Positions 12,668 to 63,449 of a DNA stretch of 64,000 nucleotides are shown here, piece by piece. The stretch's first letter is position 1. Each line of letters opens with the position of its first letter. Both the position numbers and the translations under genes were made by a program. The stretch is from positions 62,001-126,000 of the forward strand of contig NZ_VOQQ01000001.1 in the NCBI RefSeq assembly GCF_007995055.1. Reading direction: 5' to 3'. The stretch comes from Sphingosinicella ginsenosidimutans. GTDB taxonomy: Bacteria; Pseudomonadota; Alphaproteobacteria; Sphingomonadales; Sphingomonadaceae. The notes under the pieces were generated by a model that worked only from the letters and a program-made list of their open reading frames with translations, had not been told where the DNA came from and ran no database searches.

Positions 12668-15112
12668 CTAACCCTCGATCCGCGAGAAATCGGCGACTGC
12701 ATCGACCGCGTGCTGGAGACGCGACAGCAGGATCAGCCGGGTTTCCCGCTTGTGCGGATCGACATCGTTCACCGTCACATTATCAAAGAACGCATCGACC
12801 GGCGCGCGCAGGCCCGCCAGCACCTTCATTGCCCCCTGATAATCCTCACGCTTCAGCGCTTCCGCGGCGGCCGGCTCGGCCGCGTCGAGGGCGGCGATGA
12901 GAGCAGCTTCCTCTTTTTCGGGCGTGTAGGAAAGGGGCTCGTTCCCCTCCCGTTCTCCTTCGCTTTCCTTCCCCTCTCCCTTGAGGGAGAGGGCAGGGTG
13001 AGGGTGTACCGCGCCGGCGGGTTCACTCGAAGGCCGAGCCCCCTCACCCCGACCCTCTCCCCGCTGGGGAGAGGGAGTTGGCGCAGACCAGCCTTCCTTC
13101 TTCAGGATGTTCGCGGCGCGCTTGTAGCCGGCGAGGAGATCGGCGCCTTCCTTCGTCTCGACGAAGGATTGCAGCGCCTTCACCCGGGCGAGCAGGCGGA
13201 CGAGATCGTCCTCCCCGCCCAGCGCGAACACCGCGTCGATCAGGTCATGCCGGACGCCCGCCTCGCGCTGCTGGACCTTGAGGCGGTCGGCGAAGAAGTC
13301 GAGGAGGTCCGATGTGACTCCCCTTGGATCGACCGAATCCCAATCTGGCAATTTCTCGCCAACTCGCGCGGCCATGATCTCTGTCTCGGCGATGAAGTCG
13401 AGTTTGCCGTAATCTTTCCTAATTTCGCTAATAGCCGCGTGCATGGGCTTGTAGAGTTGCAAAAACAGCTCGAACGAAGAGCGAGAAAACACTCGCCCTA
13501 GGCTAAGCCGAAGCTGATTCAATGTGATTAGCTGGATGGCAGCTAAACACGATCTACGTAAGGCAAACGGGTCCCGAGAGCCCGTCGGCGGAAGCTTCGC
13601 TGCGAAAAAGCAGAGCATCGTATCCAGCTTGTCCGCCAAACTCACCGCCACCGTCACCGGCGCGGTGGGGACGTCGTCGCCCTGGCCGACCGGCTTGTAG
13701 TGATCGCGGATCGCCTCGGCGACCTCTGGGGGCTCGCCCTGCGCGGCGGCGTAATAGCCGCCCATCAGGCCCTGCAACTCGGGAAACTCGCCGACCATGC
13801 CGGTGACGAGATCGGCCTTGGCGAGCCGCGCGGCGCGTTCGGCGAGGGCGGCCAGTTCCTCCCCGGTACGGGGAGGGGGACCGCCAGCCGGAGGCTGGTG
13901 GTGGAGGGGGTCGCGAGACCCATCGCGCGGGTGGAGAGCCCCCTCCACCGTCCGCTGCGCGGCCGGTCCCCCTCCCCGTTCCGGGGAGGATGTGACGATC
14001 CCTTCCTCGACCAGCCAGCGGGCCAGCTTCGCCACACGCTCGACCTTGTCCGCCACCGTGCCGAGCTTTTCGTGGAAGACGATGCCGGAGAGCTTCTTCG
14101 CCTGTTCCTCCAGCGGGACCTTGAGGTCCTGCTCCCAGAAGAAGCGCGCGTCCGCGAGCCGCGCGGCGAGGACCTTGCGGTTGCCCTCGACGATCGCCGC
14201 GCCGCCATCCGAGGCCGCGATGTTGGCGGTGCAGATGAAGGCGTTGGCGAGCTTGCCCGCCTTGTCGCGGCAGACGAAATATTTCTGGTTCACCCGCGCG
14301 GTGAGCTGGATCACCTCCGGCGGGACGTCGAGGAACGCGGCGTCGAAACGGCCGAGGAGCGGCACCGGCCATTCGGTGAGGCCGGCATTTTCCGCAATCA
14401 GCCCTTCGTCCTCGATCAGCTCGAGGCCGGCTTCGGCGGCAAGCTTCGCCGCGCCCTCCCGGACGATGCGCGCGCGCTCGTCCTGGTCGACGATGACGTG
14501 GCAGGCGCGCAGCTTTTCGACATAATCGGCGGCCGAGCCGATCGTGATCGCGCCGGGATGGTGGAAACGATGGCCGGCCGTCGCGGAGCCGCTGGCGATG
14601 CCGGCGATCTCGAACGGAACGACCTCGCCGCCGAGCAGGGCGACGATCCCCTGCAGCGGCCGCACCCAGCGAAGGCTCTCGGTCGACGCGGATGCGTCTC
14701 CCCAGCGCATCGATTTGGGCCAGGGGAAGGCGCGCACGATGGCCGGGATCGCCTCGGCCAGCACCGCGGCGGTCGAGCGGCCGGGTTTCTCGATGACTGC
14801 GAACCAGATTCCGTCGCGCTCGACGAGTTGGTCGCGCTCCAGCCCCGTCTTGCGCAGGAAGCCCTCCAGCGCCTGCGGCGGCGCGGACGTGCGCGGCCCT
14901 TTCAGCTCCTCGCTCACCGCCTCGGTCTCGGCCGGCAGGCCGCGCGCGATGAGCGCGAGCCGGCGCGGGGTCGCATAGGTCTCCACGGCCTGCGCGGCGA
15001 GCCCGGCAGCCGCGAGCTGTTCCCCGAACAGCCGCGCAAGATCCGCCCGCGCCTTCGCCTGCATCCGCGCCGGAATTTCCTCCGAAAGGAGTTCGAGGAG
15101 GAAATCGCTCAT
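12668..15112 (-). CDS. glyS: Glycyl-tRNA synthetase beta chain with repeat insertions
   Basis: An 814-residue beta subunit of the tetrameric glycyl-tRNA synthetase, which charges tRNA-Gly together with GlyQ; bacterial GlyS is usually near 700 residues. The start MSDFLLELLSEEIPARMQ is canonical. Conserved blocks such as ETYATPRRLAL, GMVGEFPELQGLMG, AVSLADKLDTM and FFADRLKVQQREAGVRHDLID are intact, so the enzyme should be functional. The excess length comes from three odd segments. Residues about 375-419 are read through a palindromic element (13857-13990). Residues about 679-715 are read through another (12969-13077). Residues about 518-597 lie in DNA of roughly 48-57 percent GC (13321-13560). 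All keep frame. The gene follows glyQ after a repeat-filled 148-base gap. Confidence 0.95.
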   Translation of the reverse strand: MSDFLLELLSEEIPARMQAKARADLARLFGEQLAAAGLAAQAVETYATPRRLALIARGLPAETEAVSEELKGPRTSAPPQALEGFLRKTGLERDQLVERDGIWFAVIEKPGRSTAAVLAEAIPAIVRAFPWPKSMRWGDASASTESLRWVRPLQGIVALLGGEVVPFEIAGIASGSATAGHRFHHPGAITIGSAADYVEKLRACHVIVDQDERARIVREGAAKLAAEAGLELIEDEGLIAENAGLTEWPVPLLGRFDAAFLDVPPEVIQLTARVNQKYFVCRDKAGKLANAFICTANIAASDGGAAIVEGNRKVLAARLADARFFWEQDLKVPLEEQAKKLSGIVFHEKLGTVADKVERVAKLARWLVEEGIVTSSPERGGGPAAQRTVEGALHPRDGSRDPLHHQPPAGGPPPRTGEELAALAERAARLAKADLVTGMVGEFPELQGLMGGYYAAAQGEPPEVAEAIRDHYKPVGQGDDVPTAPVTVAVSLADKLDTMLCFFAAKLPPTGSRDPFALRRSCLAAIQLITLNQLRLSLGRVFSRSSFELFLQLYKPMHAAISEIRKDYGKLDFIAETEIMAARVGEKLPDWDSVDPRGVTSDLLDFFADRLKVQQREAGVRHDLIDAVFALGGEDDLVRLLARVKALQSFVETKEGADLLAGYKRAANILKKEGWSAPTPSPQRGEGRGEGARPSSEPAGAVHPHPALSLKGEGKESEGEREGNEPLSYTPEKEEAALIAALDAAEPAAAEALKREDYQGAMKVLAGLRAPVDAFFDNVTVNDVDPHKRETRLILLSRLQHAVDAVADFSRIEG
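12969..13077. repeat. Palindromic element, type A, inside glyS
   Basis: About 109 bases made of two hairpin arms (CCCTCTCCC TTGA GGGAGAGGG and CTCTCCCCGCTGGGGAGAG) facing each other across a 25-base variable centre. The arm at 12972-13007 matches the reverse complement of 52280-52315 at all 36 positions. The other arm differs from its partner there at only a few bases. Read through glyS it encodes Pro/Gly/Arg-rich sequence such as PTPSPQRGEGRGEG and HPHPALSLKGEG, in the variable loop between AANILKKEGW and EEAALIAALD. It has no stop codon in that frame. Confidence 0.9.
13321..13560. other. Low-GC segment inside glyS
   Basis: A sharp composition break in an otherwise high-GC gene. I count 87 G or C in the 180 bases 13381-13560 (48 percent), and about 57 percent in 13321-13380, against an estimated 65-70 percent around it. 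It encodes FALRRSCLAAIQLITLNQL through SFELFLQLYKPMHAAISEI to LPDWDSVDPRGVTSD, between the conserved blocks KLPPTGSRDP and LLDFFADRLKVQQ. AT-ended codons (TTA, AAT, ATT, GAA) are unusually common. It looks like a replaced or inserted segment from another source. Confidence 0.75.
13857..13990. repeat. Palindromic element, type B, inside glyS
   Basis: About 134 bases bounded by 27-base terminal inverted repeats (13857-13883 and the complement of 13964-13990) that differ at one base. Each terminus is itself a hairpin (CCTCCCCGGTACGGGGAGG). Inside, GGTGGAGGGGG and CCCCCTCCACC form a second inverted pair. In glyS it is translated to residues about 375-419, rich in Pro, Gly and Arg (SSPERGGGPAAQ, PPAGGPPPRTGE), just before the conserved ELAALAERAARLAKADL. 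Related copies lie at 15118-15156 (one end only) and 53424-53553. Confidence 0.9.
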
Positions 15113-15117
15113 CGCCG

Positions 15118-15156
15118 ATCCTCCCCGGGACGGGGAGGGGGACCGCCGCGCACCAC
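15118..15156. repeat. Solo end of type B palindromic element
   Basis: Six bases upstream of the glyS start codon lies a single copy of the type B terminus. Bases 15119-15147 match the left end of the glyS insertion (13857-13885) at 28 of 29 positions. It forms one strong hairpin (CCTCCCCGGGACGGGGAGG) in what should be the ribosome binding region of glyS, so it may affect glyS translation. Confidence 0.85.
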
Positions 15157-15161
15157 CTCGT

Positions 15162-15232
15162 TCGTCCCGAGCGCAGTCGAGGGGCGCATGTGATGAATCA
15201 GTGCCGGCGCCCCTCGACTTCGCTCGGGACGA
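15162..15232. repeat. Palindromic repeat between glyQ and glyS
   Basis: A 26-base inverted repeat (15162-15187 against 15207-15232, 25 of 26 positions paired) with a 19-base spacer. The arms carry CCCGAGCGCAGTCGAGGGGC, a sequence unlike types A and B. It lies in the glyQ-glyS gap and would form a long hairpin in the transcript. It is a third repeat type packed around the same gene. Confidence 0.85.
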
Positions 15233-15260
15233 GCGGTCGTTCGTTGCGGCCAAGCGCTCC

Positions 15261-19054: not shown

Positions 19055-19085
19055 AGCCCCTCTCCCACGATGGAGAGGGGCTTTC
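19055..19085. terminator. Bidirectional terminator between convergent genes
   Basis: AGCCCCTCTCC (19055-19065) pairs perfectly with GGAGAGGGGCT (19072-19082), followed by TTTC. It lies between the stops of the RcnB-like gene and the convergent metalloprotease gene and can serve both. Confidence 0.75.
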
Positions 19086-50038: not shown

Positions 50039-50059
50039 TCAGCCCCGATGCGCTGACGT

Positions 50060-50185
50060 CCTTCGATACGGGCCTTCGCCGGGCTCAGCCCCTACTCAGG
50101 ATGAGCGGGCCAGGTGGCTGGAATGGTGGCAGCACGGCGCTCATCCTGACTGGCCGGTGAGCTTGTCGAACCGGCGTATCGAAGG
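50060..50185. repeat. Palindromic intergenic repeat, type C
   Basis: Ends CCTTCGATACG (50060-50070) and CGTATCGAAGG (50175-50185) are exact inverted repeats, and the inner parts keep pairing loosely (CTCAGGATGAGCG against CGCTCATCCTGA). It fills most of the 182-base gap between the cupin-like gene and uvrC. It is not related to the type A or B elements. Confidence 0.85.
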
Positions 50186-50220
50186 GCGTATCGGAAGCCT
50201 CGAAGAGCCCATCGCCAGCC

Positions 50221-52209: not shown

Positions 52210-52315
52210 CTCCCTCTCCCCGGAGGGGAGAGGGTTGGGGTGAGGGGGCTCGGCGGTCGAGAATAATCCCAGACGCCCGACACCCTCACCCTGCCCTCTC
52301 CCTCAAGGGAGAGGG
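52210..52315. repeat. Palindromic element, type A, intergenic
   Basis: About 106 bases in opposite orientation to the glyS copy at 12969-13077. Its arm 52280-52315 is the exact complement of 12972-13007 over 36 bases, and the other arm (around GGAGGGGAGAGGGTTGGGG) is nearly the same. The centre (about 25 bases) differs. It sits in the gap between the starts of uvrC and the SDR gene, where it could add hairpins to either transcript's leader. Confidence 0.93.
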
Positions 52316-63309: not shown

Positions 63310-63313
63310 TTTT

Positions 63314-63449
63314 CCCTCGCCCCTTCAGGGGAGAGGGTAGAGCCGCGAAGCGGCGAAGGGAGAGGGGCAGTGCCGGACTCTCTACCATCTGCTCATCCTC
63401 TCGGGCTCCCCCTCTCCCCAGCCCTCTCCCCCGGAGGGGAGAGGGAGGG
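63314..63449. repeat. Palindromic element, type A-like, between dnaK and dnaJ
   Basis: About 136 bases with outer hairpin-forming ends (CCCCTTCAGGGGAGAGGG on the left, CTCTCCCCCGGAGGGGAGAG on the right) and inner GAGAGGGGCAG and CCCCCTCTCCCC arms. It is related to the glyS and uvrC/SDR type A copies by these arms but is longer in the centre. It fills the dnaK-dnaJ gap. Confidence 0.8.

Follow-up and report, generated by a model that had tools for sequence, protein, structure and literature searches.

The gene for the glycyl-tRNA synthetase beta subunit (glyS) of Sphingosinicella ginsenosidimutans carries, in frame and within a variable loop of its product, a 104-bp palindrome whose sequence identifies it as an inverted pair of BoxC repeats, also known as PIT elements and as the intrastrand-triplex motif TM_ECO. 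The gene lies in a stretch of 64,000 nucleotides of contig NZ_VOQQ01000001.1 (positions 62,001 to 126,000, forward strand), referred to here as the window, whose own numbering is used for all window coordinates. We consider it probable, at roughly 75%, that BoxC dimers are repeats without a mover and that their copies within genes survive only in frame and in tolerant loops. Relatives and individual loci are denoted below by G and L numbers where they need to be told apart.

A BoxC inverted dimer within glyS

The host gene (12668-15112, minus strand) encodes a protein of 814 aa that matches PF02092 (E=1.8e-181), PF05746, and chain C of PDB 7yse (E=1.1e-90). The core of the element (12972-13075, minus strand) consists of a 33-nt arm resembling type A, with a second loop of 2 nt (12972-13004, plus strand), a 36-nt centre to which no strand is assigned (13005-13040), and a 35-nt arm resembling type B, with a second loop of 3 nt (13041-13075, minus strand). 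It encodes a peptide of about PSPQRGEGRGEGARPSSEPAGAVHPHPALSLKGEG in the loop termed S3, shortly before EEAALIAALD. Counted with its anchors, this loop (AANILKKEG..ALIAALD) has 78 residues, versus 31 to 38 in the shortest relatives. A preliminary description of this sequence had reported an in-frame palindrome here with a distant, oppositely oriented intergenic copy, and both are confirmed. Positions 12972-13007 and the reverse complement of 52280-52315 agree at all 36 bases; the latter stretch belongs to a BoxC dimer (52212-52315, plus strand) located between uvrC and an SDR gene. As RNA, the glyS element is predicted to fold at -78.8 kcal/mol, compared with -59.9 +/- 3.8 kcal/mol for 200 shuffles (z -4.96), and the intergenic copy has a fold z of -6.76.

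The arms have the layout CCCTCTCCC-loop-GGGAGAGGG-loop-GGGTGAGGG, as in BoxC. The minus-strand arm matches the TM_ECO consensus, CCCTCNCCC N3-6 GGGNGAGGG N3 GGGNGAGGG, with loops of 5 and 3 nt, and the other arm agrees with this consensus except that its second loop has 2 nt instead of 3. The pairing of unlike arms is regular: every one of the 22 strict-pattern dimers from this genome and G008 sets a 2-nt arm opposite a 3-nt arm, corresponding to A+B pairing as judged by second-loop length. The centre varies in sequence and measures 36 nt in 20 of these dimers, the exceptions being 37 nt in valS and 56 nt in ileS. The loop letters of the A and B arms are unlike the TTA and CCG of E. coli, and no GTAG or CGTC tag was found beside the hairpin, which is followed by CA or NNG and GGGTGAGGG.

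The arm sequence would allow an intrastrand triplex, a structure that BoxC/PIT/TM_ECO forms in vitro according to Holder et al. 2015 (PMC4666352; this and the other papers are cited for the portions compared here). In that account, TM_ECO occurs 3610 times across 262 proteobacterial genomes, and each of the five inverted pairs in E. coli unites one arm of either type, A and B. All 23 copies of E. coli K-12 are intergenic, which is a property of the K-12 copies and lies outside the motif definition. BoxC is also counted among the stem-loop families of E. coli (PMC2267715).

The 3.04-Mb genome contains 23 exact copies of the hairpin, versus none of a reversed control, and the full BoxC motif is present in 23 of 41 genomes (this one and 40 relatives), with 1 to 66 arms where present. 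The element is thus not limited to glyS and the site at 52210. The exact 33-nt arm of the glyS copy recurs eight times in G008, a genome with 45 BoxC arms, and twice in G004, and the 22-nt hairpin seen here is also that of E. coli K-12 copy no. 2 (PMC4666352, Table 1). Since the same arm is found in G008 and G004, and its hairpin in E. coli, it is an old conserved motif, and arm identity does not date an insertion. The earlier suggestion that near-identical arms point to recent spread was therefore abandoned, arm identity as a clock being rejected by the exact copies in G008 and G004.

Three further occurrences are recorded here as side observations. Many near-identical single arms in G024 (CCCTCTCCCGCTYGCGGGAGAGGGCAGGGTGAGGG) resemble a recently expanded subfamily. 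A degenerate BoxC dimer lies at 63312-63447 between two open reading frames (ORFs) on the same strand, and a lone hairpin at 19055-19082 (AGCCCCTCTCC..GGAGAGGGGCT, then TTTC) is possibly a terminator or a BoxC remnant.

BoxC copies inside genes keep the reading frame

Elements were scored as lying in a gene when a coding ORF, according to a codon model trained on the window, spanned them on both sides, and gene counts were restricted to Pfam-verified genes with the element inside the family match. By this measure, 2 of 19 places examined in the own genome are in genes (glyS and ileS), as are 6 of 25 elements fetched from G008 (valS, mutL, loop S2 of glyS, ileS, cysG, and carA); in G018, none of 32 BoxC elements is inside a gene. 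Another 79 elements, drawn from a range of genomes (chiefly G004, G006, and G024) and overlapping in part with the other sets, include five spanned ones, namely the window glyS again, valS of G006, and three without a Pfam match, which were not counted. The total is nine family-verified copies inside genes, all in frame, which supports the initial view of the glyS insert as a repeated element in frame in a variable loop. In-frame copies are found in the own genome, G008, and G006, so the rule that BoxC/TM_ECO is always intergenic does not extend to these bacteria. If the ileS insert and the valS insert, each shared between genomes, are counted once apiece, the independent events number seven, four of them in tRNA synthetases. 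For this small sample, the synthetase enrichment has P of ~2e-6 or ~3e-5 if synthetases make up 1.6% or 3% of coding length, two shares that we take as assumed estimates.

Several elements fell outside the count. The elements of L009 (methylmalonyl-CoA mutase), L010 (nrdB), and L102 (rpoC) of G000 precede the family match; in the same genome, L014 and L096 had unscanned ORFs, and L105 has a single arm beyond a terminase match. L115, L221, and L247 are spanned yet have no Pfam match. Coverage was 30 loci for 66 arms in G024 and 30 loci for 38 arms in G004 and G006 together, and two arms at contig ends of G008 were left out. A protein search identified the BoxC-type peptide at 75-82% identity in methylmalonyl-CoA mutases from metagenomes and, at the corresponding loop, in a further GlyS; in the metagenomic mutases P0003 and P0004, a peptide much like that of the window GlyS lies between two domains. 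This search, which was region-restricted and covered proteins of similar length, gave five matches among 139 candidates, two in glyS (one the window's own) and three in methylmalonyl-CoA mutase, and was kept out of the enrichment argument.

The nine gene copies have dimer lengths of 104, 104, 105, 105, 106, 106, 125, 125, and 128, covering every residue modulo 3. It is therefore the junctions that preserve the frame, the element having no fixed length that would do so, and the frame is presumably maintained by selection. The preliminary description had noted that each strand is open in at least one frame, which holds for the glyS copy (one plus and two minus frames) and the 52.2-kb copy (one per strand), and had proposed that this would help the element to settle in genes. 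The shuffle comparison speaks against the proposal. The 68 dimers scored outside genes have a mean of 2.79 of six frames open, compared with 3.17 in dinucleotide shuffles, and both strands are open in 62 of them (versus 85% of shuffles), while the 10 dimers scored in genes have 3.5 open frames, compared with 4.02. The BoxC element is not specially stop-free, and on this basis we rejected the idea that its open frames are an adaptation. Whether copies break reading frames as often as chance could be checked in part. By a coarse test, none of 51 unspanned elements in G008 and G018 has stop-free, same-strand coding sequence in both 150-nt flanks, so no broken gene is seen among the elements of these genomes; a single disrupted glyS gene is taken up below.

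Synthetase loops are filled by several palindrome families

The window glyS contains two different palindromes, as first described. In addition to the BoxC dimer in S3, the loop S2 contains in frame an inverted repeat unrelated to BoxC, here called T2 (13857-13990, minus strand; arms of 32 nt, 91%), which is predicted to fold at -114.5 kcal/mol in the glyS message (z -8.98). Both insert loops are of low predicted order. In an AlphaFold2 prediction from 33 sequences, the inserts (residues 379-410 and 681-723) have pLDDT <50 and are flanked by confident helices; segments 135-151 and 440-442 are also below 50. The beta subunit of E. coli GlyRS bridges the S2 gap with ~7 residues and S3 with ~30.

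We compared these loops in a non-random sample of 81 glyS genes, consisting of the window gene and the best 80 of 294 relative loci. The patterns defining insert classes are loose and overlapping; some rows fit both BoxC and T2, and L306 is weak. S2 is enlarged in 59 of the 81 genes and short in 22, S3 is enlarged in 43, and S1 in 7. The S3 enlargements include 15 with a protein extension containing IPQTGEEDP and 10 without a match to any element pattern. Perfect stems of at least 9 bp are present in 77 of 94 inserts (the IPQTGEEDP extension excluded), compared with 39 of 327 control windows from the same genes. The counted BoxC, T2, and GC-rep hairpins are confined to S1-S3, which make up 16% of the sequence; outside these loops, S4 has a single match, to another class, and five weak matches of 12 nt lie elsewhere. 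The gene of G008 has BoxC in S2 and GC-rep in S3. Where glyS cores are 89-94% identical, sister species differ in the family found at a given loop, or display between them a complete element, a remnant of one hairpin, and a different family.

Similar variation is seen in two other synthetases. The IleS loop following QWFIPMD contains palindromes in 19 of 23 readable genomes, in four motif classes (12 BoxC or BoxC-like, 3 TCGAC, 1 T2, and 3 TTGTCGAAGG-like, of which L312 and L313 were classed by eye); the remaining loops have 25 residues without a palindrome in one genome and 4-6 residues in three. Of the 25 genomes in which the ValS loop was readable, G006 and G008 have BoxC in it, G019 has a different family, and G010 retains a one-hairpin remnant; the loop is short in the other 21. 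The ileS loops read leave out G021 and G024, and ileS and valS each have one truncated locus lacking the loop. Single loops are thus occupied by several palindrome families, and some copies are shared by inheritance.

Proposed mechanism and alternative explanations

We propose that the BoxC inverted dimer, in which two intrastrand-triplex-type arms face each other over a 36-nt centre, would be a non-autonomous repeat copied around the genome, chiefly to intergenic sites. Insertions into genes would be retained only if the inserted length preserves the frame, the frame is stop-free, and the resulting Pro/Gly/Ser/Glu-rich peptide lands in a loop or linker that tolerates it. For Sphingomonas relatives, such sites may be a small number of loops in large essential enzymes (GlyS, IleS, and ValS in particular), which would have gained, lost, and regained palindromes of different families. 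On this account the copies would move, broken insertions would be removed by selection, and the encoded peptide would be tolerated rather than useful.

Several points weigh against this account. No fresh insertion was caught among the genomes compared, and neither a target-site duplication nor an exact insertion boundary was established. Constraint or homogenisation could also account for identical arms around different centres. One of the 81 glyS genes (L073) is broken within a palindromic S3 insert, although it derives from a metagenome assembly and an assembly error is possible. The IleS loop is short in just 3 of 23 genomes, which is more filling than tolerance alone obviously gives. Finally, in 7 of 8 comparisons (several related to one another, and some with right flanks that take in the hypervariable S4), inherited inserts are better conserved at third codon positions than their two flanks are on average, which is not predicted for a purely neutral passenger.

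A possible alternative, to which we give a minority share of belief, is a relay in which a palindrome resident in a loop attracts the next one by hairpin- or BoxC-directed insertion, so that families replace one another. A nested element speaks for it. Three glyS genes (L050, L051, and L094) have in their S2 loop a ~60-nt palindrome, N, within a BoxC arm. One copy of N is present in each of five of seven genomes searched, which were reached through loci (L326 and L328 being the further ones), and all five copies occupy the same position of the arm, apparently in place of AGAG of GGGGAGAGGG. Within glyS, two species have N in arm 1 and a third has it in arm 2, which requires at least two entries or movement of N; the N pattern had no match in 149 genomes of the family. 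Also consistent with a relay are a tandem of two GC-rich palindromes within a single loop of L069 and sister genes that differ in family at one loop (L017/L020 versus L027, 89% core identity; L063 versus L068, 90%; L047 versus L079, 91%). However, in most loops just one family is present and no remnant of a second is visible, and N, with its single copy per genome, may be a BoxC-arm variant that travels with the arm. Loops can also empty first, as one-hairpin remnants in L076, L080, and valS of G010 indicate. More broadly, it is conceivable, though we lean against it, that a few synthetase loops are standing landing pads, through which unrelated palindrome families relay in essential genes with the frame kept.

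We find it rather doubtful that the inserts are kept for a function, with an mRNA hairpin or DNA triplex tuning the translation, folding, or expression of synthetases. The very stable predicted folds of both elements in the glyS message, the third-position conservation of inherited inserts, and the four of seven independent BoxC events in synthetases (P of ~2e-6 or ~3e-5 at the assumed coding shares) could all be read in this way. However, relatives do without the insert in 3 of 23 ileS, 21 of 25 valS, and 22 of 81 glyS S2 loops, and none of the 32 elements of G018 is in a gene. Element families are also interchangeable, mutL, cysG, carA, and methylmalonyl-CoA mutase are hit as well, and large multidomain essential enzymes may simply display survivors best.

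It is very unlikely that BoxC is moved by the genome's own RAYT, a tyrosine transposase (Y1_Tnp) associated with repetitive extragenic palindromic (REP) sequences, as is supposed for GTAG REPs. The genome does have one Y1_Tnp match (C1:2113697-2114017), but BoxC and Y1_Tnp are distributed independently over the 41 genomes (both in 9, Y1_Tnp only in 7, BoxC only in 14, neither in 11; Fisher P=1), and G008, with its 45 arms, has no Y1_Tnp match. No inverted repeat of at least 12 nt (with at most 120 nt between arms) was found within 500-680 bases of the own Y1_Tnp match. We therefore disfavour RAYT as the mover, given the lack of co-occurrence and of flanking inverted repeats.

A chance-palindromic, low-complexity expansion of GC-rich coding sequence, for which one might cite the 68% GC of the window and the Pro/Gly-rich peptide, is so improbable as to be negligible and is refuted by the copy count (23 exact hairpins, none in the reversed control), the 36/36 identity with an intergenic copy, and the regular arm pairing and centre length of the listed dimers.

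Other palindromes in and around glyS

The surroundings of glyS are rich in further repeats. A T2-type hairpin at 15112-15147 lies directly upstream of the start codon; its fold is unexceptional (z -1.02), and its 3' arm, GGGGAGG, has a Shine-Dalgarno-like placement and would be paired in the hairpin. Close upstream is a TCGAC-type inverted repeat (15159-15235; arms of 29 nt, 93%), which brings the number of palindromes within ~2.3 kb to four, of three kinds. Within the gene, the segment 13340-13570 has 50% GC (gene 67%) and encodes S4, which is hypervariable among species. Elsewhere in the window, an inverted repeat of the TTGTCGAAGG kind (52 nt, 75%) lies at 50056-50189 beside the end of uvrC, and a palindrome of this kind also occupies the ileS loop of L314.

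T2-like peptides are also found in frame in other genes. From 20 stretches in which long open frames cover T2-like matches, 10 ORFs were submitted to Pfam and 6 were verified (L276, L277, L279, L284, L292, and L294), representing hydantoinase/oxoprolinase in four genomes, coaBC, and truB. In other bacteria, REPs and RPE-1, one of the Rickettsia palindromic elements (RPE), have been reported in truB.

Comparison with known palindromic repeats

The BoxC repeats of E. coli share with those described here the arm sequence, the stem sizes, the inverted A+B pairs, the variable loops, and the lack of a linked mobility gene, as far as the compared portions of PMC4666352 describe them. They differ in the centre, which is mostly 36 nt here but measures 16-27 nt in four E. 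coli pairs out of five (computed from Table 1 of that paper; the fifth is reversed), and in location, since the K-12 copies are wholly intergenic whereas part of those examined here are in frame within genes.

Short palindromes and dimers within genes are likewise known for GTAG/CGTC REPs, which Di Nocera et al. 2013 (PMC3733652) found in genes including truB and tRNA synthetases of E. litoralis and S. alaskensis, as well as at about the same site in recB of two Xanthomonas species. The element described here is BoxC and, unlike those REPs, has no GTAG or CGTC tag. The refilling of loops in three synthetases by multiple families, and its change between sister species, does not appear in the main-text portions of PMC3733652 that were compared, the supplement being outside this comparison. 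Palindromic repeats in enzyme genes of Pseudomonas aeruginosa have been proposed to shape proteins (PMC4496055); they too lie inside enzyme genes, in a different host and with different genes and sequences.

Palindromes inside genes are therefore already known, whereas BoxC within genes and recurrently filled synthetase loops look new; open-access papers yielded no report of either (subscription papers and one supplement aside). A repeat that is intergenic in E. coli and has no known mover enters essential genes in frame. The loops of GlyS, IleS, and ValS, refilled by unrelated palindromes, provide natural experiments in which filled, empty, remnant, and nested states can be compared between sister species. 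These bear on how palindromes without a mover spread and are lost, and they offer a handle on the extent to which essential enzymes tolerate inserted peptides.

A parallel in mode of working is provided by the RPE, reportedly the subject of Ogata 2000 and of Claverie and Ogata 2003. RPE and other small repeats are found in frame within genes (PMC2229807). Like the BoxC copies described here, which are palindromes in frame in conserved protein genes, RPE are palindromes of ~105-146 bp situated in frame in conserved genes and are tolerated in at least one tested enzyme. They belong to another host group and are not described as triplex-type in the compared portions of PMC2229807. The likeness thus concerns the mode of working, and we claim no membership of BoxC in that family.

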